The notes under the pieces: generated by a model
What the model saw: the letters and a program-made list of their open reading frames with translations, nothing else
Database searches by the model: none
What the model was told of the DNA's origin: nothing
Position numbers and translations under genes: made by a program
Shown here: piece by piece, positions 10,485 through 40,064 of the stretch
Layout: the number at the start of each line of letters is the position of its first letter
Numbering within the stretch: position 1 is the first letter of the stretch
Source: Fimbriiglobus ruber
GTDB lineage: Bacteria > Planctomycetota > Planctomycetia > Gemmatales > Gemmataceae
Assembly (NCBI RefSeq): GCF_002197845.1
Contig: NZ_NIDE01000003.1
Location: forward strand, 310,001 to 374,000
Reading direction: 5' to 3'
DNA length: 64,000 nt

Positions 10485-10504
10485 TCCCATAGGCGTCAGG
10501 TTAG
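10485..10504. repeat. terminal inverted repeat, left
   Basis: Twenty bases identical to the reverse complement of 11861-11880. The transposase stop codon lies inside this repeat. Confidence 0.93.
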
Positions 10505-11799
10505 GGAGTAAGGTGTTTGCGCGACAGGAGTTTCAGCGTCGATGCGCGCCGCCGCTTGGGAACACCCATACGATCCATGAACTTTTTGAGATTTGTGATG
10601 ACCAGGTTTAATTGATCCCCCGCGGCGGCGATCGCGATCCGGCTCGCCATCGCGTGGTGCTGGACCTGCTTCCGGGCAGCCGTCTGGTTCACCCCGGTCA
10701 GGGGGCCGCCCCGCAGGAGCATCCCCCACTGGCACACGATCTGGCCGATCAACTTGGCCAGGATCTCGCACTCGACCCGATCCCCCGTCGTCCCCTTCGA
10801 CGCGGCTAATCCGCCGACGCTCTTCCACCCTTTGAAGAGCAATTCGATTTGCCAACGCGCCCGGGACACCATCCACACCTCGACCGGGTTGAGAACCCGG
10901 GCCGGGATGTCGGTCGCGTGGACCGTCCACTCGCACATGACCCGCTGGGCGGGGCTCACCGCTCGCTGCTTGCGGCGGGCGGTCTCGATCACCCGGGCCA
11001 ACCGCTGGGCCACCACCGCGGGCGGACACCGGCGGACGACCAACCGGCACGGGACGGCGTTCGCACCCAGTTCAATGGCCAGATCCCGAGCGTCCTCGGA
11101 CGACCCACTCAGGAACGTGTGGAGGGATTGGGTGCGACCGTCGTAGGTCACGGTGATTCCGGTCGGGACGCGGGAAATCCAGGCAATCCCGGCCGCGTTC
11201 CATGCGGTCAGGCGGTCCGTATCGAAGAGCCCCAAGTCGGCCCGCACGAGGGCTCCCGATGGGGGATCGGGAATCGCCCGGGCGGACGGGTGATCGGACG
11301 GCTTGCCGGCCGACAGGATGAGGCGATCGATGGCTCCGGTGGTCCGCTCCCAGCGGGTGAAGATCTTGACGGCGGCGGCTCCGACCTCCGGCCCGTTCCC
11401 CGTGGTCCCCGGCCGCCGGTCGGCGGCATCGGGCGGAAGGGCGACCGTCGTTCCGTCCTCCGCGTAGGCCCCGGTGAACGTCGTCAGCAGTCGCGGGAGA
11501 ATCGGGGTGGCCGCCAACGCTCGATCGATCGCATGGGCGAGAAGGGACTCCAGGAATGCCCGCCCGCGTTCATTAAACCGGTCGTGGACGGACTGGGGGT
11601 GGACCCCGAGCGCGGCGGCCAATTCGTCCACGGTGGCCGCCGGGTTGTGGGCCCATCCGAACACGACGGCCTGAGCGAACGAGCCGCCGGTAATGGTCCA
11701 GACACGTTGAACGAACTGGGTCTCCCGAGCCAACCGGTCGGCGGTGGCGGTGAACAGAGTCTGCAAGGTCGAAGCGAGGTTTGCTACACTAATCTGCAC
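10501..11799 (-). CDS. IS4-family-like DDE transposase
   Basis: Encodes 432 aa and starts at GTG 11799 behind a good Shine-Dalgarno (AAGGAG, 6-base gap). It catalyses cut-and-paste transposition of its own element. The candidate DDE triad is Asp115 (in AEDGTT), Asp188 (in RADLGLF) and Glu319. The last lies in R315-x3-E319-x6-K326, the R-E-K signature typical of IS4 transposases. An N-terminal helix-turn-helix-like segment (about 55-80, DELAAALGVHPQSVHDRF) probably binds the ends. The gene is full length without frameshifts, so the element may still be active. Confidence 0.9.
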   Translation of the reverse strand: MQISVANLASTLQTLFTATADRLARETQFVQRVWTITGGSFAQAVVFGWAHNPAATVDELAAALGVHPQSVHDRFNERGRAFLESLLAHAIDRALAATPILPRLLTTFTGAYAEDGTTVALPPDAADRRPGTTGNGPEVGAAAVKIFTRWERTTGAIDRLILSAGKPSDHPSARAIPDPPSGALVRADLGLFDTDRLTAWNAAGIAWISRVPTGITVTYDGRTQSLHTFLSGSSEDARDLAIELGANAVPCRLVVRRCPPAVVAQRLARVIETARRKQRAVSPAQRVMCEWTVHATDIPARVLNPVEVWMVSRARWQIELLFKGWKSVGGLAASKGTTGDRVECEILAKLIGQIVCQWGMLLRGGPLTGVNQTAARKQVQHHAMASRIAIAAAGDQLNLVITNLKKFMDRMGVPKRRRASTLKLLSRKHLTP

Positions 11800-11860
11800 G
11801 GGGAACTCCTTTCCGGTCGCAGGAAGCGTGGTAACTTCATGCTATGGAAGGAGTTGCCCT

Positions 11861-11880
11861 CTAACCTGACGCCTATGGGA
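11861..11880. repeat. terminal inverted repeat, right
   Basis: Twenty-base partner of 10485-10504, on the side upstream of the transposase start. Confidence 0.93.
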
Positions 11881-11897
11881 CTGACGTCCCCCGCTCG

Positions 11898-13211
11898 CTA
11901 AATCGACTGCATTTCATCCGGCGGAAGGGGTGTCTCCCCCGGCCCCGGGGTGGCGACCACGTGGCCGTTTTCCTCGACCTTGAGGAACCGCACGCGGACC
12001 TCTGGCCCCTCAATGTGGCGGAGCAGGTGCCGCGGGAGGTAACAGCGGAGGACGATGCTGTTGCCGCGAAACTCCTGGCGGAATATCTCCGCGTGGGCGT
12101 TGAGGTACGCGAGTACCTTGCCGTTCCCGGCGGGCGTCGTCACCTCGGCCGGGGCGAAGTCGGCGGACAGCGCCCCGATCACGGCCTCCTGCAGGTCGGC
12201 CAACCCCTCGCCGGTGAGCCCGCTGATCGCGATCGCCCGCGGGTGGTGGGCCCGGAGAACGTCGACGACCGACCGGTCGGCCACCCGGTCGATCTTGTTC
12301 AGGACCAGGATCGACGGCTTCTTGTCGCAGCCGAGTTCGGTCAACACTTCGTTCACGGCCCGGATCTGCTCCTCGGCCATCGGGTTGCTCGCGTCGACGA
12401 CGTGCAAGAGCAGCCGGGCTTGCCGGGTCTCTTCCAGCGTCGCCTTGAACGAGGCCACCAGCCCGTGCGGGAGCTGCCGGATGAAGCCGACCGTGTCGGA
12501 CAGGAGAACCCGGCCGAAGTCCTTGATGTGCCACTGGCGGGTCCGGGTGTCGAGCGTGGAGAACAGCTTGTTTTCCACGTACACGCCGGCCTTGGTCAGC
12601 GCGTTCATGAGCCGCGACTTGCCCGCGTTCGTGTACCCGACGAGCGAGACGGTGTACTCCTCGCCGCGGCTGCGGACTTCCCGCTCCTTCCGCGCCTGGA
12701 CGTCCGCGAGCCGCTGCTTGAGGTCGCGGATGCGCCCCCCAGCGAGCCGCCGGTCGGACTCGAGCTGTGTTTCGCCCGGCCCGCGGAGGCCGATCCCGCC
12801 CCCCTTCTGCCGGGACAAGTGCGACCACATGTTTTTCAGCCGCGGGAGCGAGTATTCGAGCTGCGCGAGTTCGACCTGCAATCGGGCTTCGAGCGTCTGC
12901 GCCCGGGTGGCGAAGATGTCCAGGATCACCTCGGACCGGTCGAGAACCTTGACACCGACCGCTTTTTCCAGGTTCCGGGCCTGGGCCGGCCCCAGGTCGT
13001 TGTCGAAGACGACCACGTCCGCGCCGGTCGTCTCGACCAACTCCTGAAGTTCCCGGAGCTTGCCCGACCCGATGTAGGTCGCCAGCTGGATGTCCTGCCG
13101 TTTCTGGGTGAGTTCCCCGACCACGACCGCGCCGGCCGACTCGGCCAGCCCGCGGATTTCGTCGCACGGGTCGTCGGTCACCCACGGGCGGTCGGGCAGG
13201 GCGACCGACAC
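11898..13211 (-). CDS. hflX: ribosome-associated GTPase HflX
   Basis: Encodes 437 aa from the GTG at 13211. HflX binds 50S subunits and splits stalled or hibernating ribosomes. An N-terminal HflX domain (with FDNDLGPAQARNLE) and a glycine-rich helical linker (GGGIGLRGPGETQLE) precede the G domain, with G1 GYTNAGKS, G3 DTVGF and G4 NKID. The conserved sequence continues upstream of 13211 in frame (SQERAVLV) with no ATG, GTG or TTG. An ideal Shine-Dalgarno points to an ATC at 13274, which would give 458 aa. The true start is therefore uncertain; the product is not. Confidence 0.93.
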   Translation of the reverse strand: MSVALPDRPWVTDDPCDEIRGLAESAGAVVVGELTQKRQDIQLATYIGSGKLRELQELVETTGADVVVFDNDLGPAQARNLEKAVGVKVLDRSEVILDIFATRAQTLEARLQVELAQLEYSLPRLKNMWSHLSRQKGGGIGLRGPGETQLESDRRLAGGRIRDLKQRLADVQARKEREVRSRGEEYTVSLVGYTNAGKSRLMNALTKAGVYVENKLFSTLDTRTRQWHIKDFGRVLLSDTVGFIRQLPHGLVASFKATLEETRQARLLLHVVDASNPMAEEQIRAVNEVLTELGCDKKPSILVLNKIDRVADRSVVDVLRAHHPRAIAISGLTGEGLADLQEAVIGALSADFAPAEVTTPAGNGKVLAYLNAHAEIFRQEFRGNSIVLRCYLPRHLLRHIEGPEVRVRFLKVEENGHVVATPGPGETPLPPDEMQSI

Positions 13212-13369
13212 GAGAACAGCCCGTTCCTGGCTGACCGAGAATTCCGCCCGCTGGGTTTCGAACGCTTTACTGATGGCGAACTCCTTTTTAATACCTACGC
13301 ACCACTTTACGCGTCCGACCCACCCGACCGCAACGGCGAGATTCCGGCGGCGGTCGGCGGGAAACGAAA

Positions 13370-13408
13370 CCGGCCCGCCCGAACAGTCTGACTGTTCGGG
13401 CGGGCCGG
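13370..13408 (-). terminator. strong hairpin after vWA gene copy A
   Basis: A perfect 19-bp stem with a 1-base centre, starting CCGGCCCGCCCGAACAGTC. It lies 27 bp downstream of the stop of the 13436-17995 gene, between it and hflX. There is no long T-run. The matching hairpin after copy B differs by one compensatory base pair. Confidence 0.8.
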
Positions 13409-13435
13409 AGGTTCACGGTCGAGTCCCGCCGCGGG

Positions 13436-16400
13436 TCAGTTGGTGCCCCCCGGGATCAGGTCGAACTTGGGCACCGGGATGTCCCTGGCCGGGCCGGTGA
13501 AGACCGGCTTGGCCGCCATCACGACATTTTTCCGGTCGGCCGACACCCGGGCCTCGACGCGGAGGCCCGGCATCCCGACCACGGCGCCCATCGCCCGGTT
13601 CTCCCGGACTTCACTCACCAGCGGGATCGCCGCCTGGCGGGCGACCGGGAGACTCTCCACGTCCCCGACCCCGACCCCGGCGAGCATGGTCTTCGGCTTG
13701 CCGACGGCGACCGGTTCGAGGGTCGTGTCGATCCGAGTGGGCTTGTACTCCTCGGCCGGGATGGTGGCCAATTCGGTCCGCGCCCCGGTGTCCAACTGGA
13801 TCACGATCGGCTTCGGGGCCGCCAGGTCGACACTGAAGATCTCGACCGTCTCGCGGTCGGTCCCCTGGTGCCGGGTCACCTTGACCGTCGCCCGGTTCCC
13901 GAGTGGGCGGCCCAGCGCCTTGACCACGCTCACCGTGTACGTCCCGGGGAACGCCTGGGCATCGGTATACAGCTCCGACCGGTTGTCGTCGGCCTGCTCG
14001 AGGATGTCGGACTTGAGGACGCCGCCGCTTGTCGTCCGCCTGTGGGTCGCCGAGCAGACGGCCCCGGTCGGCTCGGCCACGATCAGGTCGAGGTCGGCCT
14101 GCCCCTGGAACAGGAGTTCGACGACCAAGTCCCGGACCTTCTCGCCGGTGACGACCCGGTTCAGGTCGTCGGCCTCGTCCTTGCGGCCGGCGGCGGCGAA
14201 CGTCTTGGCAATGACGGTGACCCGCTTCTTGGCCTGGGCGTGGTAGTCGACGGTGTCGTCGGCCCAGTCCCGTTGGAGCAGGTTGGCGGTCGCCCAGTGG
14301 ACGACGTCGGCCCGGACGTCGGACGCCTTCTCGGCGTACGCCAGGGCGTTGGCGTAGACGGCCGGGTTGTTCGGCTCGAGGGCGGCCGCCCGCTGGCAGT
14401 AGGCGACGGCCTGGGCTTGGTGCCCGAGGTCGCTCTCGGCCCGGGCCGCCTTGAGGAACGTGGTCGGATCCTCGGGGTCGAGGTCGACGGCCGACAGGGC
14501 GGCCCGCTCGACCTCGGCCGGGGCGGCCTGGCCGGCCCGCAGGGCGATGGCCAGGGCGTCGTGGACCCACCAGTCGTTGACCCGGCCCTTCCGCAGGGCC
14601 GCCTTGATCGCCTCGGTCGCGTGGGCATACTCCTTGGCCTCGAACAGGGCGTCGACGGCGGCCACGATGTACTGGGGGTCGGTCAGGGGCCCGCCGATGG
14701 CCTCGTTCCACACCTTCTGGGGGTCGGTCCCGGTCTTCTTGAGCAGGGCCGCGACGTTCTCCTTGGCCGCGTTCATCTTGCCGGCGAACTGGCCCTGCCG
14801 CTCGAGCCCGGGCCCGCCGGCCCCCATCTGCTCGTTCCGCCGGAGCTTGAACGACGGGGTCGTGTGATACCGGCCGCTGCCGCGGATAACAAGGGCCCGG
14901 GACGGCGGGTAGAACCCGAGGGAGTTCAATTGCTTCTGGGTGATCTCGCCGCCCTGCTCGTCCTCGAGCTGGGTTTGGCTGAAGATCTGCTGCTGGACAC
15001 CGCCGATCTGTCGGAGGTCCCACTCGCCGCGGGCGACGACGGACGTCACCAGGGTGATGAGGAACCGGCTCTGGTCGTTCCCTTGGATGCCGAACTGTCC
15101 GGTCAGGCCGCCGCCCTGGAACCCGCCCCGGCCGGCGAACCCGCCGCCCCCTTGGGCCTGGAACCCGCCCTGGAACTGGCCGCCCTGGAATCCGCCCTGT
15201 TGTTGGCCGCCAAACCCGCCGCCGCCGAACCCGCCACCGCCGCCACCAAATCCCCCACCACCAAATCCCCCACCACCAAATCCCCCACCACCGAACCCGC
15301 CCTGGATTTGGCCGCCGAATCCGCCGCCGAACCCGCCGACGCCGCCGATCCCGGCCCCGGCGAACGTGTTGAACGAGGATCCGAAGATGGTGGCCTGCTG
15401 GCCGATGAACTGGAGGTTCTGGCGGAGCGTCTGCGGGTTAACAGACTGCGGGATGCCGATGACAAGTTCACTAACGTCGAACACCCGGGTGACTTTGTCG
15501 TCGTACCGGAGCGAGTACGTCGTCGAGTTCGGCCCGATCTCGATGAACTCGGGCCGCGCGATCCAACTCATGCTCTGGTCGCGGAGGAGGGTGTCGAGGA
15601 ACGCCCCGAGGGGCAACCCGGACAGGTTGCTGGTCGTCTTGATCTTCTCGTCCCCCGGCTTGAAGTCGGCCGGGAACAGGTCGTTGCGGAAGACGAACTG
15701 GAGGCCGTAGTCCTGGAACTGGCCCTCCAGTTCCCTAAGCACGTCGTACAGCGTTCGGTTCGCGATGTCCTTCAGGTTGACCCGCCGGTCGACTTCGCCT
15801 TCGAGAAGGGACTTCATCCGCCGGAACGCCGGGGCGACGTTGTACCCGAGCGAACTGGTGCTGTACCTCTCGGCCCGACTGCCGGTCAGTTCCCGCCAGA
15901 CGCCGGCCGGCGGGAAGTGGACGGGGGGCTCGTCCGGGTACGGGATGAACGACTTCTCGACCTGCATCATGGTGAGCAGGAACCGGTCCTCGCGGAGGCG
16001 GCGGAGTTCGGTCAACTCGCGGAGGTTGGTGGCCGACTGCCCGATCCGGTAGCTGGCGTGGATCTCCGGGGGGATCGACAGCCCGCGGGACACCCGCTCC
16101 TGCCGCATCAGTTCGGCCTCCTGCTGGGCCAACTCGTACCGGGCCTGGATCATCAGTTGCTTGAACGCCCCGATCCGCTGCTCGGTCTGCTTGTCGAGCG
16201 TCTCCTGCTGGTCGAACTCGTTGATGCGGAGCCGGGCGGCCGCCACCCGCTCCCGCTGGGACGCGAGTTGACGCTTGATCTCGGCCCCCTTGAGTTGGAC
16301 CTCCCGCATGGCCGTCTCGAGGTCCTGGGCCAACCGCTGGCGGACGGCCTCGGAGAGTTGGTCGTTCTGGCGGACGCTGTCCCGCTGCCGCTTGAGGTCT

Positions 16401-17995
16401 TCGTAGGCCGAGTCGGGGTCGGTCGCGAGGAGCCGGCGGGTGCGCCGGAGGGTGTCGTCGACAAGGAGCCGGTATTCGCCCTCGAGGACCGACTGGGCGG
16501 CCTTGGCCTGGGCGATCAGATCCCGCTCGGCCGGCGCCGGGGCTTTTAAGGGTGGGGGCACCGGAGCCTGATCAGCCCGAGCCGGTTGTTTCGCGCCCGG
16601 GGCCGGGGCGTCCTTCTCGGCCGGTACGTCCTGAAGTTGTTCGAGCTTGTGCCCTTTAGTCAGCTCGATTTTCACTTTCCTGGCCCCGAGTTCGCCGGCC
16701 TTGATGCGGGCCACGATTTTTAACCCGGCCTTGGCCTCGGTTGATTGGGGGTCGATCTTGGCAGCGGCCTCGAAGTACTTCTCGGCGTGGTCCAGGCGGT
16801 CGGCCCCGATGGCCCAGACGGCGTGGATGTTGAACTCGTCGCGGAACATGCGGAACTGCTCGCTGGCCATGACCAAGGTGCGGTCGGCGGCCAGGAGTGC
16901 CGGGGCGTCCTTGACGGGGGCGGCCCGCCACTGGTCGAGGATGGCGTTCAGGAAGTAGTGATCCGCGTCGGCGGTCGGGAGTCGCTCGGACAGGTCCACG
17001 GTGACGCGAACCCCGGCAACGCGGCCGTCGATGCGGGCGGACACGGTTTGGGGGAGTCCCTTGAGCTTGCCGACGACCAAGGTGGCGCGGTCGGCCCGGA
17101 GTGGGGGGAGGCGGGTCGGGTAGGTCTCGGCCCCGTCGGGTCCGAACGTGGCCTTGTCGGCCCGGAGGACCGGGGTATCGAAGGCGGCCTTGAGTTGAGC
17201 CACGAGGGCGGACCGCGGCTCGCTCCTCTGGCGGACGACGGTCCCGCCGGTCAGCGTGGCCAACCCGTGCAAGTTCTCGGCGCCGATCTTCATTCCGAGG
17301 GGGACGGCGAAGAAGGCGATGTCGCGGTCGGCCAGGCGGTTCCCGAGTTCGACCCGAGTCGTCTCCGTCAGGGCCTTCGCGCTGGCCGCGCTTTTCCCGT
17401 CGCCCAGGTAGAGCAGGATCTGTTGCCGCGCGCCGCCCGGGAACTGGGCAGCTGCTTTCTCAAGACCGGCTTTCAGGTCCACGGCCCCGTATCCGTACTC
17501 GGATTCGTTGAGGCGGGTGAGGGCGGCCTTGACCGGTTCGCTGGTCGGCGGGTGGAACCCGCCGGACAGGGAGCGGGTGGCCGAAGCGTCGTTGATGTTG
17601 ATGGTCCAGACGTCGATCCGGTCATCCACTCCGGCCGCCGCAACGAGGGCGGCGGTGATCGCCCGGGCGTCGTTCAGGACGGGTCCGGCCTGGCTGGCGG
17701 ACGTGTCCACCATGACCAGGATGTCGCGGGGGCGGGGGGCCCGGGCCTCCAGCGTGGGCTTGACCTGCCACGCGAAGATGGTGTCCCCGGACGCCGACTT
17801 GTACGTCAGGGCCGGTTGGTTGGTGAACTTCGTGATGGCCACTTCGGCGGGGGCCGGTGTTCCGGCGGCCCCGCGGGCGGGCGCGGCTGCCGTCCGGGCC
17901 CGGAGGTTACTGAACACGGCGGACCCGACTACGGCCGTCACGGCGGCGAGGCCGAGGGCGGTAGTCAGGAGCCGGAGCCGTCTGACAAAAGTCAT
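13436..17995 (-). CDS. large vWA / coiled-coil / Gly-rich / TPR envelope protein, copy A
   Basis: Encodes 1519 aa. One N-terminal membrane or signal segment (about 9-30) is followed by a von Willebrand A domain whose MIDAS motif D97-T-S-A-S is intact. After it come a helical Q/E/R-rich coiled coil (~480-640), a segment resembling the short beta domain found before secretin-type repeats (~740-860), a Gly-Phe-Gln-rich low-complexity region (~880-960), TPR-like helices (~1040-1250) and a C-terminal beta region. The likely role is an exported scaffold or adhesion protein; no enzyme site is seen. It is nearly identical to the adjacent 18591-23150 gene outside the N-terminal third and Gly-rich region. 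A GGAG lies 11 bases before the ATG. Confidence 0.85.
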   Translation of the reverse strand: MTFVRRLRLLTTALGLAAVTAVVGSAVFSNLRARTAAAPARGAAGTPAPAEVAITKFTNQPALTYKSASGDTIFAWQVKPTLEARAPRPRDILVMVDTSASQAGPVLNDARAITAALVAAAGVDDRIDVWTININDASATRSLSGGFHPPTSEPVKAALTRLNESEYGYGAVDLKAGLEKAAAQFPGGARQQILLYLGDGKSAASAKALTETTRVELGNRLADRDIAFFAVPLGMKIGAENLHGLATLTGGTVVRQRSEPRSALVAQLKAAFDTPVLRADKATFGPDGAETYPTRLPPLRADRATLVVGKLKGLPQTVSARIDGRVAGVRVTVDLSERLPTADADHYFLNAILDQWRAAPVKDAPALLAADRTLVMASEQFRMFRDEFNIHAVWAIGADRLDHAEKYFEAAAKIDPQSTEAKAGLKIVARIKAGELGARKVKIELTKGHKLEQLQDVPAEKDAPAPGAKQPARADQAPVPPPLKAPAPAERDLIAQAKAAQSVLEGEYRLLVDDTLRRTRRLLATDPDSAYEDLKRQRDSVRQNDQLSEAVRQRLAQDLETAMREVQLKGAEIKRQLASQRERVAAARLRINEFDQQETLDKQTEQRIGAFKQLMIQARYELAQQEAELMRQERVSRGLSIPPEIHASYRIGQSATNLRELTELRRLREDRFLLTMMQVEKSFIPYPDEPPVHFPPAGVWRELTGSRAERYSTSSLGYNVAPAFRRMKSLLEGEVDRRVNLKDIANRTLYDVLRELEGQFQDYGLQFVFRNDLFPADFKPGDEKIKTTSNLSGLPLGAFLDTLLRDQSMSWIARPEFIEIGPNSTTYSLRYDDKVTRVFDVSELVIGIPQSVNPQTLRQNLQFIGQQATIFGSSFNTFAGAGIGGVGGFGGGFGGQIQGGFGGGGFGGGGFGGGGFGGGGGGFGGGGFGGQQQGGFQGGQFQGGFQAQGGGGFAGRGGFQGGGLTGQFGIQGNDQSRFLITLVTSVVARGEWDLRQIGGVQQQIFSQTQLEDEQGGEITQKQLNSLGFYPPSRALVIRGSGRYHTTPSFKLRRNEQMGAGGPGLERQGQFAGKMNAAKENVAALLKKTGTDPQKVWNEAIGGPLTDPQYIVAAVDALFEAKEYAHATEAIKAALRKGRVNDWWVHDALAIALRAGQAAPAEVERAALSAVDLDPEDPTTFLKAARAESDLGHQAQAVAYCQRAAALEPNNPAVYANALAYAEKASDVRADVVHWATANLLQRDWADDTVDYHAQAKKRVTVIAKTFAAAGRKDEADDLNRVVTGEKVRDLVVELLFQGQADLDLIVAEPTGAVCSATHRRTTSGGVLKSDILEQADDNRSELYTDAQAFPGTYTVSVVKALGRPLGNRATVKVTRHQGTDRETVEIFSVDLAAPKPIVIQLDTGARTELATIPAEEYKPTRIDTTLEPVAVGKPKTMLAGVGVGDVESLPVARQAAIPLVSEVRENRAMGAVVGMPGLRVEARVSADRKNVVMAAKPVFTGPARDIPVPKFDLIPGGTN

Positions 17996-18524
17996 CGCTC
18001 GAGCACTCCAGAGGGAAAGAAGCCGGAGGCGGGGCGAGATCCCCCGGTCGGAAAAAAAGGGCGATACGACAGCTAAAGAAGGCAGGCGGTAGAACCGCCG
18101 TGCCCTCTAACTTGTTCAGCGGACTGAGTGTTACAAGCGGCTATTTCGGCAGCGACCTTGTCGGCGCAGGCGGGCCACCTGTCGAAAGCCGGAAGTCGAT
18201 CGATTCGGTCGGAAACGAAGATTGTTTCGTGGTGTACCGCTGCTTCTACGGGCGAGTCGTCGCGTCGCGAGGAAGTGAATTAATTTTAATGTTAGATTCC
18301 CTGTCGCTGCCAGAAGAATTTGCCGCGAAATCGACGCCCTAACTTGTGACGTGCGGGTACGATCGAAAAACTCGGACCGATCCTCCCACCCGCGCGGGAT
18401 CTTTTAGGAACGCGAAAAATCAGACGTGCCCGGTCCCGGCTGAACGAAAGCTCTCGCCATAAAATTCCCCACTCTCCTCGCCCCGAATTCCCGCGGAAAG
18501 GGAATCGGTGGATGGGAAACGAAA
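17996..18524. other. intergenic region between the twin vWA genes
   Basis: About 530 bp that should hold the promoter of copy A. It is less GC-rich around 18200-18330. A plus-strand ORF (18100-18342, 80 codons) has no ribosome site or recognisable sequence and is not called. The motif AATTTGCCGCGAAA near 18317 has a close counterpart near 23270 upstream of copy B. Confidence 0.45.
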
Positions 18525-18563
18525 CCGGCCCGCCCGAGCAGTCTGACTGCTCGGGCGGGCCGG
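18525..18563 (-). terminator. strong hairpin after vWA gene copy B
   Basis: A perfect 19-bp stem, CCGGCCCGCCCGAGCAGTC with its complement and a 1-base centre, 27 bp after the stop of copy B. It differs from the 13370-13408 hairpin by an A-T to G-C change made on both arms. Confidence 0.8.
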
Positions 18564-18590
18564 AGGCTCACGGTCGCGTCCCGCCGCGGG

Positions 18591-21500
18591 TCAGTTGGTG
18601 CCCCCCGGGATCAAGCCGAACGTGGGCATCGGCATGTCCTTGGCCGGACCGGTGAAGACCGGCTTGGCCGCCATCACGACATTCTTCCGGTCGGCCGACA
18701 CCCGGGCCTCGACGCGGAGGCCGGGCATGCCGGGGGCGCTGCCCAGAGCCCGATTCTCCCGCACTTCGCTCACGAGCGGGACGGCCGTCTGACGGGCGAC
18801 CGGGAGGCCGCCCACGTCTTCCGCCCCGGCCCCGGCCCCGGCGAGCATCGTCTTCGGCTTGCCGACGGCGACAGGTTCGAGGGTCGTGTCGATCCGGGCC
18901 GGCTTGTACTCCTCGGCCGGGATCGTGGCCAGTTCGGTCCGCCCCCCGGTGTCCAACTGGATCACGATCGGCTTCGGCGCCGCCAGGTCGACGCTGAAGA
19001 TCTCGACCGTCTCGCGGTCGGTCCCCTGGTGCCGGGTCACCTTGACGGTGGCCCGGTTCCCGAGCGGCCGGCCGAGGGCCTTCACCACGCTCACCGTGTA
19101 CGCCCCGGGGAACGCCTGGGCGGCCGTGTACAACTCGGACCGGTTGTCGTCGGTCTGCTCGAGGATGTCGGACTTGAGGACGCCGCCGCTGGTCGTCCGC
19201 CTGTGGGTCGCCGAGCAGACGGCCCCGGTCGGCTCGGCCACGATCAGGTCGAGGTCGGCCTGCCCCTGGAACAGGAGTTCGACGACCAAGTCCCGGACCT
19301 TCTCGCCGGTGACGACCCGGGTCAGGTCGTCGGCCTCGTCCTTGCGGCCGGCCGCGGCGAACGTCTTGGCGATGGCGGTGACCCGCTTCTTGGCCTGGGC
19401 GTGGTAGTCGACGGTGTCGTCGGCCCAGTCCCGTTGGAGCAGGTTGGCGGTCGCCCAGTGGACGACGTCGGCCCGGACGTCGGACGCCTTCTCGGTGTAC
19501 GCCAGGGCGTTGGCGTAGACGGCCGGGTTGTTCGGCTCGAGGGCGGCCGCCCGCTGGCAGTAGGCGACGGCCTGGGCTTGGTGCCCGAGGTCGCTCTCGG
19601 CCCGGGCCGCCTTGAGGAACGTGGTCGGGTCCTCGGGGTCGAGGTCGACGGCCGACAGGGCGGCCCGCTCGACCTCGGCCGGGGCGGCCTGGCCGGCCCG
19701 CAGGGCGATGGCCAGGGCGTCGTGGACCCACCAGTCGTTGACCCGGCTCTTCCGCAGGGTCGCCTTGATCGCCTCGGTCGCGTGGGCGTACTCCTTGGCC
19801 TCGAACAGGGCGTCGACGGCGGCCACGATGTACTGGGGGTCGGTGAGGGGCCCGCCGATGGCCTCGTTCCACACCTTCTGGGGGTCGGTCCCGGTCTTCT
19901 TGAGCAGGGCCGCGACGTTCTCCTTGGCCGCGTTCATCTTGCCGGCGAACTGGCCCTGCCGCTCGAGCCCGGGCCCGCCGGCCCCCATCTGCTCGTTCCG
20001 CCGGAGCTTGAACGACGGGGTCGTGTGGTACCGGGAACTGCCGCGGATGATGAGGGCCCGGGACGGCGGGTAGAACCCGAGGGAGTTCAATTGCTTCTGG
20101 GTGATCTCGCCGCCCTGCTCGTCCTCGACCTGGGTTTGGCTGAAGATCTGCTGCTGGACGCCGCCGATCTGTCGGAGGTCCCACTCGCCGCGGGCGACGA
20201 CGGACGTCACCAGGGTGATGAGGAACCGGCTCTGGTCGTTCCCCTGGATGCCGAACTGGCCGGTCAGGCCGCCGCCCTGGAACCCGCCCTGGCCGGCGAA
20301 CCCGCCGCCCCCTTGGGCCTGGAACCCGCCCTGGAACTGGCCGCCCTGGAACCCGCCCTGCTGTTGGCCGCCGAACCCGCCCTGTTGGCCGCCGAACCCG
20401 CCGCCGCCGATCCCGCCGCCACCGAATCCACCGCCGCCGAATCCACCGCCACCGAATCCACCCTGGATTTGGCCGCCGAATCCGCCGCCGCCGACGCCGC
20501 CGATGCCGGCCCCCGCGAACGTGTTGAACGAGGATCCGAAGATGGTGGCCTGCTGTCCGATGAACTGGAGGTTCTGGCGGAGCGTCTGGGGGTTAACCGA
20601 CTGCGGGATGCCGATGACCAACTCGGCCACGTCGAACACCCGGGTCACCTTGTCGTCGTACCGGAGCGAGTACGTCGTCGAGTTCGGCCCGATCTCGATG
20701 AACTCGGGCCGCGCGATCCAACTCATGTTCTGGTCGCGGAGGAGGGTGTCGAGGAACGCCCCGAGGGGCAACCCAGACAGGTTGCTGGTCGTCTTGATCT
20801 TCTCGTCCCCCGGCTTGAAGTCGGCCGGGAACAGGTCGTTGCGGAAGATGAACTGGAGGCCGTAGTCCTGGAACTGGCCCTCCAGTTCCTTCAGCACGTC
20901 GTATAGCGTTCGGTTCGCGATGTCCTTGAGGTTGACCCGCCGGTCGACCTCGCCTTCGAGGAGGGACTTCATCCGCCGGAACGCCGGGGCGACGTTGTAC
21001 CCGAGCGAACTGGTGCTGTACCTCTCGGCCCGGCTGCCGGTCAGTTCCCGCCAGACGCCGGCCGGCGGGAAGTGGACGGGGGGCTCGTCCGGGTACGGGA
21101 TGAACGACTTCTCGACCTGCATCATGGTGAGCAGGAACCGGTCCTCGCGGAGGCGGCGGAGTTCGGTCAACTCGCGGAGGTTGGTGGCCGACTGCCCGAT
21201 CCGGTAGCTGGCGTGAATTTCCGCGGGAATCGGGAGGCCGCGGGAGACCCGCTCCTGCCGCATCAGTTCGGCCTCCTGCTGGGCCAACTCGTACCGGGCC
21301 TGGATCATCAGTTGCTTGAACGCCCCGATCCGCTGCTCGGTCTGCTTGTCGAGCGTCTCCTGCTGGTCGAACTCGTTGATGCGGAGGCGGGCGGCCGCCA
21401 CACGCTCCCGCTGGGACGCGAGTTGCCGCTTGATCTCGGCCCCCTTGAGTTGGACCTCCCGCATGGCCGTCTCGAGGTCCTGGGCCAACCGCTGGCGAAC

Positions 21501-23150
21501 GGCCTCGGAGAGTTGGTCATTCTGGCGGACGCTGTCCCGCTGGCGCTTGAGGTCTTCGTAGGCCGAGTCGGGGTCGGTCGCGAGGAGCCGGCGGGTGCGC
21601 CGGAGGGTGTCGTCGACGAGGAGCCGGTATTCGCCCTCGAGGACCGACTGGGCGGCCTTGGCCTGGGCGATCAGATCCCGCTCGGCCGGCACCGGGGCTC
21701 CCGGAGGCGCGGCTCCGGCCGCGGGGGCTTGGGGAGCCGGGGGCGGTTGTTTCGCGCCGGGGGCCGGGGCGTCCTTCTTCTCGTCATCTTGGAGCCGTTC
21801 GAGCTTTTGACCCTTGGTGAGCCCGATCTTGACCTTGTCGGCACCGAGTTCGCCGGCCCGGATGCGGGTGACGATCCGCATGCCGGCCTTGGCCTCGGTC
21901 GACTGGGGGTCGATCTTGGCGGCGGCCTGGAAGTACTTCTCGGCGTGGTCCAGGCGGTCGGCCCCGATGGCCCAGACGGCGTGGATGTTGAACTCGTCGC
22001 GGAACATACGGAACTGCTCGCTGGCCATGACCAGGGTGCGGTCGGCGGCCAGGAGTGCGGGGGCGTCCTTGACGGGGGCGGCCCGCCACTGGTCGAGGAT
22101 GGCGCTCAGGAAGTAGTGATCCGCGTCGGCGGTCGGGAGTCGCTCGGACAGGTCGACGGTGACGCGAACCCCGGCGACGCGGCCCTCGATGCGGGCGGAC
22201 ACGGTCTGCGGCAGGCCCTTGAGTTTGCCGACGACCAGGGTCGCGCGGTCGGCCCGGAGCGGGGGCAGCCGGGTCGGGTAGATCTCGGCCCCCTCGGGGC
22301 CGAACGTGGCCTTGTCCGGGCGGAGGACCGGGGCGTCGAACGCGGCCGTCAATTGGGCCACGAACACGGACTGCGGATCACTCGTCTGGCGGACCACGGT
22401 CCCGCCGGTCAGCGTGGCCAGGCCGTGAAGATTTTGGGCTTCAATTTTCATTCCGAGGGGGACGGCGAAGAAGGCGATGTCCCGGTCGGCCAGCCGGTTC
22501 CCGAGTTCGACCCGGGTCGTCTCCGTGAGAGCCTTCGCGCTGGCCGCGCTCTCGCCGTCGCCCAGGTAGAGCAGGATCTGTTGGCGGGCGCCGCCCGGGA
22601 ACTGGGCGGCCGCCTTCTCGAGACCGGCTTTCAGGTCCACGGCCCCGGAACCGTATTCGGACTCCGCGAGCTTGGTCTGGGCCGCCTTGATTGGTTCGCT
22701 GGTCGGCGGGTGGAACCCGCCGGACAGGGAGCGGGTGGCCGAGACGTCGTTGATGTTAATCGTCCAGACGTCGATCCGGTCGTCCTGGCCGGCACCTGTG
22801 GCCAGGGCGGCGAGGATCGACCGGGCGTCGTTCATGGCGGCCCCGGCCTGGCTGGCGGACGTGTCCACCATGACCAGGATGTCGCGGGGGCGGGGGGCCT
22901 CCAGCGTGGGCTTGACCTGCCACGCGAAGATGGTGTCCCCGGACGCCGACTTGTACGTCAGGGTCGGTTGGTTGGTGAACTTGGTGATGACGGTTTCCGC
23001 CGGGGCCGCCTTGCCGGCGGCCCCGCGGGCGGGTGTGGCGGCGGTCCGGGCGGCCCGGAGGTTACTGAACACGGCGGACCCGACTACGGCCGTCACGGCG
23101 GCGAGGCCGAGGGCGGTAGTCAGTAGCCGGAGCCGTTTGACGAGAGTCAT
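18591..23150 (-). CDS. large vWA / coiled-coil / Gly-rich / TPR envelope protein, copy B
   Basis: Encodes 1519 aa with the same architecture as copy A: N-terminal membrane or signal segment, vWA domain with intact D-x-S-x-S, coiled coil, Gly-rich stretch, TPR-like helices and C-terminal beta region. From the coiled coil to the C-terminus only scattered residues differ. The Pro/Ala linker before the coiled coil and the Gly-rich block differ in sequence and repeat number but compensate to the same total length. An AGGAG lies 10 bases before the ATG. It is the upstream member of the pair and has its own terminator, so the copies may be transcribed separately. Confidence 0.85.
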   Translation of the reverse strand: MTLVKRLRLLTTALGLAAVTAVVGSAVFSNLRAARTAATPARGAAGKAAPAETVITKFTNQPTLTYKSASGDTIFAWQVKPTLEAPRPRDILVMVDTSASQAGAAMNDARSILAALATGAGQDDRIDVWTININDVSATRSLSGGFHPPTSEPIKAAQTKLAESEYGSGAVDLKAGLEKAAAQFPGGARQQILLYLGDGESAASAKALTETTRVELGNRLADRDIAFFAVPLGMKIEAQNLHGLATLTGGTVVRQTSDPQSVFVAQLTAAFDAPVLRPDKATFGPEGAEIYPTRLPPLRADRATLVVGKLKGLPQTVSARIEGRVAGVRVTVDLSERLPTADADHYFLSAILDQWRAAPVKDAPALLAADRTLVMASEQFRMFRDEFNIHAVWAIGADRLDHAEKYFQAAAKIDPQSTEAKAGMRIVTRIRAGELGADKVKIGLTKGQKLERLQDDEKKDAPAPGAKQPPPAPQAPAAGAAPPGAPVPAERDLIAQAKAAQSVLEGEYRLLVDDTLRRTRRLLATDPDSAYEDLKRQRDSVRQNDQLSEAVRQRLAQDLETAMREVQLKGAEIKRQLASQRERVAAARLRINEFDQQETLDKQTEQRIGAFKQLMIQARYELAQQEAELMRQERVSRGLPIPAEIHASYRIGQSATNLRELTELRRLREDRFLLTMMQVEKSFIPYPDEPPVHFPPAGVWRELTGSRAERYSTSSLGYNVAPAFRRMKSLLEGEVDRRVNLKDIANRTLYDVLKELEGQFQDYGLQFIFRNDLFPADFKPGDEKIKTTSNLSGLPLGAFLDTLLRDQNMSWIARPEFIEIGPNSTTYSLRYDDKVTRVFDVAELVIGIPQSVNPQTLRQNLQFIGQQATIFGSSFNTFAGAGIGGVGGGGFGGQIQGGFGGGGFGGGGFGGGGIGGGGFGGQQGGFGGQQQGGFQGGQFQGGFQAQGGGGFAGQGGFQGGGLTGQFGIQGNDQSRFLITLVTSVVARGEWDLRQIGGVQQQIFSQTQVEDEQGGEITQKQLNSLGFYPPSRALIIRGSSRYHTTPSFKLRRNEQMGAGGPGLERQGQFAGKMNAAKENVAALLKKTGTDPQKVWNEAIGGPLTDPQYIVAAVDALFEAKEYAHATEAIKATLRKSRVNDWWVHDALAIALRAGQAAPAEVERAALSAVDLDPEDPTTFLKAARAESDLGHQAQAVAYCQRAAALEPNNPAVYANALAYTEKASDVRADVVHWATANLLQRDWADDTVDYHAQAKKRVTAIAKTFAAAGRKDEADDLTRVVTGEKVRDLVVELLFQGQADLDLIVAEPTGAVCSATHRRTTSGGVLKSDILEQTDDNRSELYTAAQAFPGAYTVSVVKALGRPLGNRATVKVTRHQGTDRETVEIFSVDLAAPKPIVIQLDTGGRTELATIPAEEYKPARIDTTLEPVAVGKPKTMLAGAGAGAEDVGGLPVARQTAVPLVSEVRENRALGSAPGMPGLRVEARVSADRKNVVMAAKPVFTGPAKDMPMPTFGLIPGGTN

Positions 23151-23751
23151 TGCCCGGACGCTCCTCTTGAGATCGGGTCCGGGGCGAAAGGGCGGAGCCC
23201 CGGACGGAAAGACGGTGAATACGAGTGCGTAAGAGAAATTCTACCTGTCGGTTCCCCACCGCCGCCAAAACAATTTACCGCGAAACCGGTTCGGGCGCCG
23301 AGGGCAGGGTGGGTACGGTCGAAAAAGTCGGACCGACCCGACCGCCCCAACTCGACCGAACCGGCGCAACTCTACCCGGGCTAACGGCGGGCGGTGAAAG
23401 TTGTTTGCGGGAAACCTCTCCGCCGGCGTCCGGCCGAGCCCTCACGACCCGCCCCGCGAGCGAAACCGGCACGCCCGGTGCATTGCGCCAGCCGGTCGGT
23501 CTACTAATCAATGGGGGGCAAGGCTCGGGGGCGCCGAACAGCTCACGCCCGGTTCGCGCCGGGCCATAACATGGTCGTATACCCAGCACGTGCCCGGGAT
23601 TTTGATTTGACTTGCCTACCCCACAACCTACTTTCATTCTGTCCAGACGCGAATCGTTCTGCCCGGGTTTGGCGTCACTCTGCATCCGTTTTTCACACGG
23701 AGGAGTGACGACCGCCCGGGCGAAAAGCATTCGCAGGAGAGGTCCGCAGAT
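23151..23751. other. divergent intergenic region
   Basis: About 600 bp between vWA copy B (minus) and the coiled-coil gene (plus). It must carry promoters for both. No RNA gene, repeat or convincing ORF was seen. Confidence 0.5.
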
Positions 23752-24840
23752 ATGGCGAACCCCAACCTGCCACCCGACCCGCCACCATCGATATCGGCGG
23801 CGGAGTTGCGCCGCCGGTTACTCGCATCCACGCCGCCGCCGATCGCGGCGTCGGTGGCGGCGTCACCGCTCGATTTGGAGTCCTATACCCCCGCCGGTGG
23901 GTCTCAGGCGACCCGCGGCTTGGGCGACATGATGAGCCGGCTCCGGCTCCCCTCGAGTCAACAACCGGGCTCGCCGCCCGCGGACGAGCCGCCCGCCGGG
24001 TCGTCCCTCGGCACCCCGTTTCTGCCGCAGGCGTCGATCGGTAAGCGCCCGCCCGCGAGCAACGTCCGGCTCCAGGGCATGGAGCCGGCGAACTCGATAA
24101 CACCGAGTACGGGCTCCGGCCCGGTCCGCGTGCCCCCCGCTCGCTCGCCGGGCGAAGGTTCCGGCGTTCGGTCGGCCCCGCCGAGTCGTTCTCATTCCGA
24201 AGACGACCCGGCGGGCGAAGTCCGCCGCTTGAAGTCCGAGAACAAAGAACTGCGGAAGCTTCTCCAGGAGATGAAACACCTCCTTCAGGAAGCGAGCGAC
24301 ACCGAGCAGCAGTACGCCACACGCGAACAAGAACTCCAAACTTCAATGGCGGAGCGGCAGCGGCAGATCGACGAGCTTTCGGCCCAGCTCCAGTCGATCG
24401 AAGACCAGATCGCCAGCGGCGCGCTGGCCCCGCAACAAGCTCAAGTCGTTCCGAAGACGCGGACCGAACTCGAAGACTGGGCCGACGAACTCGAGAAAGA
24501 CAGCTCGAAACTCGCCCAGGAACGTCGGCGGCTGGACGACGAGCGAAAGCAACTGCGGGAAGACGAAGAGTCGCTCGAAAAGCAGATGCGGGACATGGAA
24601 GTGGCGATGGCCCGCGAGCGGGCCATCATGGCCCGCCAGGAAACCGAACTCAAGCGCCTCAGTGCGGAAATCCAACACGAACTGGAAATCATGCAGCGGG
24701 GCGACGCGACGTTGCGGGACCAGATGCAGAAATTCCAGCGCCGCGCCCAGGACGTCCTGCAAAGCCGGCCGGGCAACATGGGCGGACCGGGGGCTTCGAA
24801 CCCCGGCATCGGCGGCGGCGGTCCGCCACGACGGCCGTAA
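23752..24840 (+). CDS. coiled-coil protein, 362 aa
   Basis: The N-terminal ~150 residues are Pro/Ser/Gly rich and likely disordered. Residues ~155-335 are a long Glu/Arg/Gln/Leu coiled coil (for example ELRKLLQEMKHLLQEA), and the last 25 residues are Gly/Pro rich. There is no signal peptide or catalytic motif. GGAGAGG lies about 10 bases before the ATG at 23752. It could be a cytoskeletal or scaffold protein; the function is not recognised. Confidence 0.7.
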   Translation: MANPNLPPDPPPSISAAELRRRLLASTPPPIAASVAASPLDLESYTPAGGSQATRGLGDMMSRLRLPSSQQPGSPPADEPPAGSSLGTPFLPQASIGKRPPASNVRLQGMEPANSITPSTGSGPVRVPPARSPGEGSGVRSAPPSRSHSEDDPAGEVRRLKSENKELRKLLQEMKHLLQEASDTEQQYATREQELQTSMAERQRQIDELSAQLQSIEDQIASGALAPQQAQVVPKTRTELEDWADELEKDSSKLAQERRRLDDERKQLREDEESLEKQMRDMEVAMARERAIMARQETELKRLSAEIQHELEIMQRGDATLRDQMQKFQRRAQDVLQSRPGNMGGPGASNPGIGGGGPPRRP

Positions 24841-24865
24841 GGTTACAGCGTAAGTACACTCGCCG

Positions 24866-24898
24866 CACGTGCCCGGGGACAATCTCCCCGGGCACGTG
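24866..24898. terminator. bidirectional hairpin terminator
   Basis: A perfect 14-bp stem (24866-24879 with 24885-24898, CACGTGCCCGGGGA) and 5-base loop. It sits between the convergent coiled-coil and OPT transporter genes and could end both transcripts. Confidence 0.75.
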
Positions 24899-24902
24899 TC
24901 GT

Positions 24903-27317
24903 TTACGCCACACCGTTCTTCTTGCCGAACCGCTCCGATCCCACGAGCACGAGTACCACGATCAGCACGCCGAAGGCGAGCGTGACCGGCAGGTTGCTGT
25001 CGGGCCACGGTCCGCCGAGCGCCCGCGTCACCGCCTCGCTCCCCTTGAGTTGCTCGCCGAAGTCGAGGGCGTCTTTCACCTCCTTCGGTGCGAACTCCAG
25101 GAACGCGGCCAGGAGTGCGGCGATCGACCCGCCGGCGATGTACCCGGAACTGAGTAGAACCCCGGGGCTGGAATCGCCCCCGTCGGGCGAGCGGCGGATC
25201 TTGTCGACCAGCCACCGGAGCGCGCCGCCGAGGAAGATCGGAGTCGAAGACGAGATCGGCAGGTACACCCCGACCGCGAACGGCAGCGACGGCACGCCCG
25301 ATAATTCGAGCGTTAACGCGATCAGGACGCCGATCAGGACGAGCCCCCACGGGAGTTTCCGGTCGAGGATGCCGTTGATGATCAGCGCCATGAGTTGCGT
25401 CTTGGGCGCCTCGAACTTCTTGACGGTCCGCCGCTCGCCGTCCGGCTTGTCGGCCTCGGAATCCTGGTACGCGAGCTTTCCGTTCACCGCCGGGTCACAG
25501 AGGTAGGTGATGGTCCCGTCGGCGGCCACGAGGTACCGCCCCGGCGGCACGTCCGCCTGATGTCCGGGCGTGGCCACGAACAATGCCGCGTCCGGTGTCT
25601 CCTCCTTGCCGATGTTGAGCACGTGGTACGTGGTCGCGTCGTCCGCGTACTCGCCGCTGCGGACGTGGTCCGTCGCGGTTAGCTGCGACACATCAACGCG
25701 GACGCTCGGAAGGTTCTTCTTGCTGTAAACCGTCCCCGCCTGATTAAGCAGGATGAGTACCAGTCCGACGACCAGAGCCGAGGTGAGCGAACCGACCAGG
25801 ATCGCGTACTGTTGCGCCCGCGGCGTCGCCCCGACCAGGTACCCGGTCTTGAGCGCCTGCGAGGTCGTACCCCCGTTGCTGGACGCAATACAAACGACCC
25901 CGGCGATGGTCAGGGCGAGCAACTTCACCTCCTTGCTAATCGCAATCACGCCGAATTCTCCCAGCGCGAGCAGGATCAAGCAGGTGAGAAGCAGGGTGGC
26001 GACCGTCATACCCGAGATCGGGTTGGACGACGATCCGATCTCGCCCGTGAGGCGCGACGAGACGGTGACGAAGAGGAAGCCGAAGAGCAGAATCATCACC
26101 GCCCCGGCGATCCCGGCCGGGTTCAACCCGAGCCCGAACTGGGGGGCCGCCGCCAGCGCGACCACCAGGCCGAGGCTGCCGAACACCACCACCTTCATCG
26201 ACAGATCCCGCTCGGTCCGCGGGACCACGGAGGCCGCCCCGTTGTCCGCGGCTCCCCGCGACGCGCGTAAATCGCGGAAGCCGGCAATGACCGACCCGAA
26301 GATGACCGGCAGTGCCTGGATCATGCTGATAATCCCGCCCGCCGCCACGGCGCCCGCCCCGATGTACAGGACGTATTCCTGGCGGATCGCCGAAACGCTC
26401 ATGTTCTTGATGAGGCCTTTGTCCGCCGTCTGCTGGGAGGCGGCCGCCGCGCCGCCGGCCAGGGCCCCGAGGGGGTTCACGTCCGCCACCTGCATTTTGG
26501 CCGGCGCGAGTGCGTGGTCCAGGGAATCGCCGAAGTAAACGATCGTCGGCACCAGCACGAGGTACGCGAGCACCCCGCCGGCAGCCATGATGCAGGCGAT
26601 CCGCGGCCCGATGATGTACCCGACCCCGAGCAAAGGGGCGGACATCTCGCACCCGAGCACCCCGCCCTTGAGCCCGACGGTCGCACCCGCCGGGGTGGTG
26701 GTAAACAGATTCTTCTCCGCCACTTCCCTAAACAGCTTGAAAGCCTGCATCAGGAACTGGAAAACGAACCCGAACCCGAACCCGACGAACAACATCTGAG
26801 CCGTCGACCCGCCCTTCTCGCCGGCAATGAGTACCTCCGCGCAGGCCGTCCCTTCGGGGTACTTCAGTTCCCCGTGCTTCTTGACCACGAACGCCCGGCG
26901 GAGGGGAATCATCATCAGGATGCCGAGCAACCCGCCGAGGACCCCGACGGTCATGACCCGGACGACGTGGATGTCGAACCCGAGGACCAGCAGCGCCGGC
27001 ATCACCAGGCCGACCCCGAACGCGATCGATTCGCCCGCGCTGCCGGTGGTCTGGACGATGTTGTTTTCGAGGATGGTCGCCCGCCGCAATCCGAGAACCC
27101 GCGAGAAGAGGCGGAACAGGGTGATCGCGAGCACGGCGACCGGGATCGACGCCGAGATCGTCAGCCCGACTTTCAAGACCAAGTAAATGGACGAGGCCCC
27201 GAACACGATTCCGAGGAGGGCTCCGATCACGACCGGAGCGAGTGTGAATTCGGGCGGCGACTCGTCGTCGGGGACGAACGGCCGGAACGCCACGGGTTGA
27301 TCGGGCGGGGCAGACAT
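24903..27317 (-). CDS. OPT-family oligopeptide/metal-chelate transporter
   Basis: Encodes 804 aa from the ATG at 27317, which directly precedes conserved sequence; the frame is open to 27392. Oligopeptide transporters (OPT/YSL) import peptides or metal chelates by proton coupling. About 14-16 hydrophobic segments are visible. The early SIYLVLKVGLTISASIPVAV segment and KYPEGTACAE loop are typical of prokaryotic OPT proteins. A soluble insertion of about 110 residues (~560-670) sits between two late membrane segments. The substrate cannot be read from sequence. Confidence 0.9.
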   Translation of the reverse strand: MSAPPDQPVAFRPFVPDDESPPEFTLAPVVIGALLGIVFGASSIYLVLKVGLTISASIPVAVLAITLFRLFSRVLGLRRATILENNIVQTTGSAGESIAFGVGLVMPALLVLGFDIHVVRVMTVGVLGGLLGILMMIPLRRAFVVKKHGELKYPEGTACAEVLIAGEKGGSTAQMLFVGFGFGFVFQFLMQAFKLFREVAEKNLFTTTPAGATVGLKGGVLGCEMSAPLLGVGYIIGPRIACIMAAGGVLAYLVLVPTIVYFGDSLDHALAPAKMQVADVNPLGALAGGAAAASQQTADKGLIKNMSVSAIRQEYVLYIGAGAVAAGGIISMIQALPVIFGSVIAGFRDLRASRGAADNGAASVVPRTERDLSMKVVVFGSLGLVVALAAAPQFGLGLNPAGIAGAVMILLFGFLFVTVSSRLTGEIGSSSNPISGMTVATLLLTCLILLALGEFGVIAISKEVKLLALTIAGVVCIASSNGGTTSQALKTGYLVGATPRAQQYAILVGSLTSALVVGLVLILLNQAGTVYSKKNLPSVRVDVSQLTATDHVRSGEYADDATTYHVLNIGKEETPDAALFVATPGHQADVPPGRYLVAADGTITYLCDPAVNGKLAYQDSEADKPDGERRTVKKFEAPKTQLMALIINGILDRKLPWGLVLIGVLIALTLELSGVPSLPFAVGVYLPISSSTPIFLGGALRWLVDKIRRSPDGGDSSPGVLLSSGYIAGGSIAALLAAFLEFAPKEVKDALDFGEQLKGSEAVTRALGGPWPDSNLPVTLAFGVLIVVLVLVGSERFGKKNGVA

Positions 27318-27955
27318 CAGTGCGTCTCGGGTGCCAGGGGTTGTGCTACGAGGAGATAGGTTCGCCGCCCGCGTGGGGTGTGGCAAGTGCAAAAGCGGGC
27401 AGCCGATTGCGCGGGCAGAAGTCGACGTGTTTAACCTGGTTACCGAGAATGTCTGGAAGACCTCGCCGGTTGTCGCAACCTCACGTCCCTCGATCTAGCG
27501 GACACGCAGATTACAGACGACGGATTGAAGCGCCTGGCCTCCCGGACAAACCTTAACAGGTTGAGTTTAACGTTGAGCGAGGTGACCGACGCGGGCGTAC
27601 AGGAACTGGCCGCCCTTAAACGGCTTACGGTCCTGAAGTTATCCCACCAAGGCCACCAAAGCTGGTATCGATAAGCTCCAGAACGCACTCCCGTCGCGTC
27701 TGATTTTGTTACTGCCATGAACGACGCGCCAGACCACTTCGCGGTTGTAGTGATCAAAGGCAACGGAAATATCCTGGCCCCGAAGACGAACTGATCGTCG
27801 CGGCTCGTGGGTGACGTCCGGAAACCTAAGCCCTTCCCTCTTAGGATCTATAACGGTCGTGTCATACCACTGGTAAAGAACGCCCCGTACCGAGGGGCAT
27901 TGTCGACGTGAAGGTTGGTGGTCGAGACAACAAGCGAACAAGTGGTCCTTCCGCA
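27318..27955. other. degenerate region holding an LRR gene remnant
   Basis: The stretch contains the LRR fragment listed separately at 27435-27674. A minus-strand ORF at 27639-27959 (106 codons) has no homology I recognise, overlaps the remnant's end and is not called. Confidence 0.45.
27435..27674 (+). pseudogene. leucine-rich-repeat protein fragment
   Basis: An open frame of 79 codons without a start codon, bounded by stops. It reads as three planctomycete-type LRR units: LTSLDLADTQITDDGLKRL, a diverged LNRLSLTLSEVTDAGVQEL, and the start of a third (LKRLTVLKLS), then goes off frame. The family is usually much longer and secreted. It is interpreted as a leftover of a deleted LRR gene. Confidence 0.6.
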
Positions 27956-40050: not shown

Positions 40051-40064
40051 GAAAATAGGCGGGG

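Follow-up and report, generated by a model that had tools for sequence, protein, structure and literature searches.

How two neighbouring genes can be nearly identical over most of their length, diverge sharply in a few confined parts and each end in a hairpin of almost the same sequence is the question raised by a 64,000-nucleotide stretch of the Fimbriiglobus ruber genome (contig NZ_NIDE01000003.1, positions 310,001 to 374,000; hereafter the window). The answer that we consider very probable is that a whole transcription unit was duplicated in tandem, that gene conversion then acted repeatedly between the copies, and that each copy has its own, separate terminator-like hairpin.

A tandem gene pair at the ancestral locus

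Both genes, A (13436..17995) and B (18591..23150), lie on the minus strand and encode vWA/TPR-like proteins of 1519 amino acids (Pfam VWA_3, E 8.3e-9 and 1e-10, respectively). A blastn self comparison delimited two minus-strand homology blocks, one spanning gene A together with 77 bp downstream (13359..17995) and the other its counterpart around gene B (18514..23150), which share 92.4% DNA identity over 4658 columns; the proteins are 93.5% identical. The tandem, near-identical 1519-codon vWA genes of the preliminary description are therefore present as open reading frames at these places and are paralogues. Their equal length is a coincidence, since five residues are missing from each copy relative to the other and the indels balance. 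A third copy was not found in the 12.36-Mb genome, where the sole other match is a 69-residue stretch (E 4.4e-6).

The likeness of the two proteins varies along their length, with 98.5% identity at residues 491-890 and 97.4% at 951-1335, compared with 87.4% at 101-330 and 74.7% at 411-490. A two-state HMM assigned the divergent codons to approximately 34-56, 108-135, 151-327, 411-486, 893-936 (the Gly-rich block), 1338-1372 and 1444-1479, along with a few shorter blocks. The differences first described in the N-terminal third and the Gly-rich block are borne out by this partition, which adds the previously unnamed segments 1338-1372 and 1444-1479. The most divergent long block, codons 411-486 of A (16538..16765, minus strand; delimited by the HMM), comprises the end of a helical part and a low-confidence linker, and its counterpart in B lies at 21693..21923 on the same strand (coordinates transferred through the alignment offset).

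The gene order in the window is hflX - A - B - ORF - OPT. The downstream neighbour of the ancestral locus is an hflX-like GTPase gene (11898..13211, minus strand; Pfam GTP-bdg_N, E 8e-32, and synteny), and the upstream neighbour is a divergent ORF (23752..24840, plus strand) that matched no Pfam family at E<=0.001 and was recognized by synteny, as was the OPT transporter gene further on (24903..27392, minus strand). Among 38 loci compared, many of which were ended early by contig or fetch ends, the hflX-like family occurs at 23, the divergent ORF family at 23 and the OPT family at 9. In single-copy relatives, whose inspection the preliminary description had proposed, the gene is flanked by hflX and the divergent ORF; here A adjoins hflX and B adjoins the divergent ORF. 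The pair thus has the same flanks and occupies the ancestral locus, and by its gene order is a tandem duplication in place. A DDE transposase gene (10501-11799) adjoins hflX, near the duplicated unit.

The similarity also extends upstream of the genes. A block located 286 nt before the ATG of A (18282..18391, minus strand), a possible promoter or leader region, is a diverged version of the B upstream block, which lies 86 nt before the ATG of B (23237..23347, minus strand); the two are 67.9% identical over 112 columns. From this shared block to the ATG, the leader of A (window 17996-18520) exceeds the B leader by about 200 nt. A scan of 11500-25500 detected no sigma-70-type promoters; we infer that each copy has a promoter of its own.

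The encoded proteins

The vWA domain (Pfam PF13768) scores 36.1 bits in A and 42.3 bits in B against a gathering score of 27, and spans residues 91-252 of A (17240..17725, minus strand; Pfam and predicted fold) and residues 90-251 of B (22398..22883, minus strand; Pfam). Residues 40-485 of A gave a confident model (mean pLDDT 90.4, pTM 0.84), in which the vWA domain superimposes on that of ANTXR2 (Z 22.5, rmsd 2.1, 170 residues). The last 26 modelled residues (460-485) have a pLDDT of 56-61, as would be the case for a disordered linker.

The predicted fold of this N-terminal half (window 16541-17878) is like the ArnB/Sec23-24 core and the vWA plus beta-sandwich part of the inter-alpha-inhibitor. 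In VIA-align, the model is similar to proteins that combine a vWA domain with beta-sandwich and helical parts, namely Catenulispora 4fx5 (Z 21.0), ITIH heavy chain 1 (Z 20.3) and archaeal ArnB (Z 20.1), over 267-274 residues. However, sequence identity is only 12-13% with an rmsd of 4.7-5.3, and lone vWA domains of unrelated proteins score equally (Z 20-22.5, about 170 residues); the resemblance comes from the predicted fold and does not establish membership beyond the vWA domain. Unlike these proteins, A carries long additional helical, Gly-rich, TPR-like and beta parts.

Modelling of residues 690-1440 gave a poor result (mean pLDDT 60.5). TPR profiles remain under their cut-offs in A and B, and 26 of the 27 members of the family set match TPR_14 at E<=5. 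The Foldseek matches listed for the C-half model, itself of low confidence, are mostly TPR proteins. With low confidence, the C-terminal half looks TPR-like with a beta domain. Weak matches at E<=5 to the FecR_C profile (6 of 27 members) and the PPC profile (4 of 27) serve as leads only. The host belongs to a group noted for unusual membranes. An N-terminal hydrophobic stretch suggests membrane anchoring, and the protein may act as a membrane-anchored surface or periplasmic vWA/TPR scaffold. An anti-phage defence protein was considered and rejected, with zero PADLOC matches at E<=0.01.

Terminator-like hairpins downstream of the genes

Inverted-repeat search and folding revealed a terminator-like hairpin with 19-nt arms after each gene, at 13370..13408 for A and 18525..18563 for B, both on the minus strand; the hairpin of B sits between genes A and B. 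Each starts 28 nt past the stop, leaving 27 nt between, and has arms that are 100% complementary and 1 nt apart, physically forming 18 bp and a 3-nt loop. The two hairpins differ only in one base pair (A-T in that of A, G-C in that of B), altered on both arms, exactly as had been reported from first inspection. Both are followed by the U-rich tail TTTCGTTT (13362..13369 and 18517..18524, minus strand), and the ten bases past the stem hold 6/10 T on the sense side versus 1-2/10 on the opposite side. Exact matches in the 12.36-Mb genome are confined to these two sites and, with up to 3 mismatches, the hairpin was matched in 1 of 21 genomes searched, its own. A dispersed repeat was rejected as an identity for the hairpin: its own genome contains the A/B core at two places only, and the core of the Gemmata group was found once each in 5 of 95 genomes, in every case no more than about 60 nt beyond the point where the gene match ends. 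No known structured RNA was detected at 12900-23900 (zero Rfam matches at the gathering score).

Stems at this position are common in the family. We compared 36 downstream regions, those of A and B plus 34 from loci in relatives (G009 supplying two), leaving out L072 and L075, which have too little downstream sequence, and the broken genes L058 and L059. A Watson-Crick stem of at least 9 pairs occurs within 110 nt of the stop in 26 regions and is absent from 10. Dinucleotide shuffles of the 110-nt stretches yielded such stems in 7 of 1080 cases and stems of at least 15 pairs in 0 of 1080, so that the A/B hairpins are not due to chance. An earlier search for U tails on energy folds of all 36 regions, which often overran the tail, gave 3.08 versus 2.28 T of 8 (p 0.076). 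When the Watson-Crick core was used instead, with outer A-T pairs trimmed and only the 26 stem-bearing regions included, the ten bases after the stem contained 6.27/10 T on the sense side versus 2.77/10 on the other, the sense side being higher in 22 regions, equal in 4 and lower in none.

In nine relatives picked for their alignable hairpins, 93.5% of cells are paired, 8 cells are changed on both sides and the covariation score is 0.165, each reached in 0 of 500 shuffles; the number of pairs with a both-side change (33/500) and of further pair types (259/500) did not stand out. The exchanges observed are AU/GC/GU and AU/GC/UA. Among six close pairs inspected, both arms changed in three, a single arm in one and only the loop in two; L040, L064, L065 and L067, which make up three of these pairs, also belong to the nine relatives.

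The preliminary description had taken the both-arm change between A and B as an indication of selection for the stem. The change agrees with selection, which the covariation in relatives supports, but is insufficient by itself, because a single template switch or quasipalindrome correction could produce it. We regard such a mutational origin as on the unlikely side. The arms are perfect with a 1-nt centre, and PMC8794818 describes both-arm changes arising in one step and counts 94.7% of compensatory cases as isolated and uninformative about the process. In addition, the inner hairpin of the dispersed G009 copy is wholly different from that of the other copy and yet again near-palindromic. Against this, the covarying pair 4-40 includes G-U pairings (AU 4, GC 3, GU 2), the three both-arm changes among the six close pairs are A-U/G-C exchanges reachable via G-U, and the one-sided U tail points to a function at the RNA level. 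Template switching and stem selection can act together, and relatives are needed before a both-arm change is read as selection.

By their anatomy, the hairpins look like intrinsic terminators. They share with Rho-independent terminators a GC-rich perfect stem soon after the stop, a U-rich run on the sense strand, covariation, and a similar position in 26 of 36 orthologue downstream regions. Unlike in typical intrinsic terminators, the A/B stem is long (18-19 bp) and the U tract is interrupted. Transcription would then end at the hairpins; with a terminator-like hairpin of its own for each copy, A and B should constitute separate transcription units.

Mosaic silent divergence between A and B

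Overall, A and B differ by a dS of 0.197 and a dN of 0.038, and silent divergence in 50-codon windows ranges from 0.00 to 0.52. It follows two states, 0.04 in long blocks and 0.28 elsewhere (two-state HMM gain, 37 log units), with strong heterogeneity (chi2/df 4.79; 0/1000 permutations as high). The Gly-rich block of A (codons 893-936; 15188..15319, minus strand) is among the segments of high silent divergence in the HMM. By contrast, six orthologue pairs of the vWA gene show near-uniform silent divergence (chi2/df 0.89-1.67), with three mildly uneven (p 0.02, 0.03, 0.05) and the other three not. These pairs are not all independent, as L046 and L064 each enter two, and some are far more diverged than A/B; one is of comparable divergence (dS 0.240 versus 0.197). 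Plotting substitutions along the copies had been put forward as the check on conversion, and the silent changes proved strongly non-uniform in A/B, unlike in the orthologues.

Degenerate third positions with unchanged amino acids gave a consistent result. A and B differ at 161 of 1377 such sites, which are clustered (runs test z -6.32; chi2/df 3.80 over all of these sites). A single run of identity exceeds the strict run-length threshold: codons 1177-1260 (14216..14467 in A, minus strand), the longest stretch without a silent difference, with 81 sites (permutation p 0.005). Four orthologue pairs gave z values of -0.26 to -2.59 and zero significant runs, the most comparable pair, L046/L047, having the z of -2.59. 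After removal of the Gly-rich block and the linker, a weaker signal persists in A/B (chi2/df 2.82, z -3.62; 0/2000 permutations as high).

Gene conversion between A and B, as first proposed, is well supported by this silent-site mosaic, together with the concerted evolution and synteny in relatives described below. We found no relative that shares the A/B duplication, the nearest congener being 57% identical, and the case for A/B conversion therefore rests on the pattern rather than on a gene tree. The accompanying claim of a recent duplication holds for the last conversions only: the divergent 50-codon windows, with a silent divergence of about 0.25-0.52, indicate that the duplication itself is older.

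In all eight blocks, neither A nor B has a closer relative than the other copy (74.7-98.5% identity, versus 47-65% to the best of 17 other aligned proteins), so that the divergent blocks either are differences of long standing between A and B or were imported from a near relative. Import from a related strain or species into one copy, with little conversion between A and B, would give a similar pattern if a diverged allele had entered. At the 29 differing sites in residues 101-330, the nearest relative, L048, matches B at 13 and A at 4, which implies more change in A in this region; the majority state among the 17 relatives leans the same way less strongly (B 15, A 10). However, the mutual closeness of A and B in every block speaks against an outside source, many separate blocks would have to be imported, and a donor was not found. 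We therefore consider import improbable.

Concerted evolution in relatives

The vWA gene is widespread in the family, with matches at E<=1e-20 in 90 of 95 genomes. A contig scan with a single-protein query returned no loci, and one with an alignment query returned 76. More than one copy is present in at least five of the 95 genomes (G000, G008, G009, G011 and G094, counted by eye from a search that scored no more than five candidates per genome), a lower bound because near-identical copies can collapse in short-read assemblies; for G008 and G094 the count was deduced from fragments at contig ends.

G009 carries one copy at the ancestral locus and a second about 46 kb away, and G008 has copies at the same two places, with orthologous 5' flanks that are 91.1% and 93.3% identical. 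Within the comparable 367 bp, the copies within each genome are 99.5% and 98.4% identical, versus 87.5-88.0% between genomes, and the informative sites group by genome at 42 positions, by locus at 2 and crosswise at 0. Across the whole gene, G009 and G011 gave a similar picture (703 by genome, 3 by locus, 0 crosswise), with orthology established for the ancestral loci only. No flank common to the dispersed copies of G011 and G009 was seen, and independent duplication is an alternative for this comparison. Both G011 copies (L058, L059) are interrupted by stops and by numerous indels of 1-2 bases, and may be either two pseudogenes or products of an error-rich assembly. Judged by these site patterns, paralogues of the related Gemmata group evolve in concert, being more alike within a genome than between genomes.

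The G009 pair is also mosaic (chi2/df 5.44; 0/1000 permutations as high), with zero silent differences at 850 sites across codons 642-1511. Of its 49 nucleotide differences, 31 fall in codons 422-482, the linker that is also most different in A/B. This coincidence is suggestive, and the linker is also fast between some orthologues. At the end of the dispersed G009 copy (L037 5880-5995 compared with L038 5880-5995), homology stops inside the first hairpin arm and a different, longer near-perfect hairpin follows, its outer arm being the same.

A single tandem duplication without conversion, in which the rate of change is simply low in the middle and C-terminal parts and high in the N-terminal part, would explain the fast linker of orthologues (pN 0.40 at codons 451-500 in L041/L063) and the dip that two L046-containing orthologue pairs show at codons 651-700 (0.06 and 0.20), one of the low A/B windows (0.00 there); part of that A/B dip may indeed reflect constraint. 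Yet it predicts roughly even silent divergence, which the orthologues nearly display and the A/B and G009 pairs do not; the other low A/B windows (1051-1100, 1201-1250) are not low in orthologue pairs, and the G009 pair lacks any silent difference over codons 642-1511. This reading is highly improbable.

Proposed history and relation to known systems

In the history that we favour, duplication followed by conversion, the ancestral locus had one copy of the gene (in the order hflX - vwa - divergent ORF - OPT transporter), which would have been duplicated in tandem in the Fimbriiglobus ruber lineage as a whole transcription unit, consisting of upstream region, gene and terminator. Homologous recombination, presumably of the RecA type, would then have repeatedly copied stretches between the paralogues, resetting silent divergence to a few percent across most of the middle and C-terminal parts. 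This overwriting would have spared the linker (411-486), the Gly-rich block, the C-terminal tail and some of the vWA region, which either escaped it or were held apart. Each copy would have retained its own GC-rich, U-tailed hairpin, with the stem maintained by base-pair covariation. A scarcely credible alternative role for the hairpin, as a DNA-level recombination or protein site bounding duplication or conversion, draws on paralogous blocks that end in the hairpin or within about 11 nt of it in A/B, G009 and G094, but a general duplication boundary is rejected by the G011 block, which ends at the stop codon with differing sequences beyond. Selection on a terminator would in any case leave it at the end of every old duplicate, and the U tail is specific to one strand.

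Concerted evolution by gene conversion is known for prokaryotic protein-coding paralogues such as tuf, psbA, ftsH, fla and others (PMC6053082). As in those genes, vWA copies within a genome are closer than orthologues between species, silent sites included, and lie at different genomic places. The vWA family differs in being absent from the 26 genes (19 bacterial, 7 archaeal) covered by that study, in the rarity of its extra copies and in a linker that stays variable. Among the planctomycete papers listed for gene duplication, gene conversion or concerted evolution, none deals with this family, judging by titles and abstract openings. Conversion between paralogues is a familiar process, and the interest lies in its recurrence within one gene family across genomes. 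If the pattern holds, the giant vWA family joins the few bacterial protein genes known for recurring concerted evolution, and offers a natural series of tandem, dispersed and multi-species pairs for probing the limits of conversion. A further, tentative and rather doubtful extension is that the gene is a recurrent target of duplication and subsequent concerted evolution (in tandem in the Fimbriiglobus ruber lineage, at dispersed loci in the Gemmata group, and once more in G094). Selection for dose or co-assembly would preserve a near-identical pair but maintain differences in the disordered linker and in some of the vWA region, giving two versions of a scaffold.

Elsewhere in the window, long inverted repeats with 38-62-nt arms occur at 4293-4406, 39954-40053, 43441-43554 and 36749-36911. 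The cores of the first three are alike (one reads CGCAGATGAACGCGGATAAACGCGGATCAGAA), so these repeats probably belong to a dispersed repeat family.
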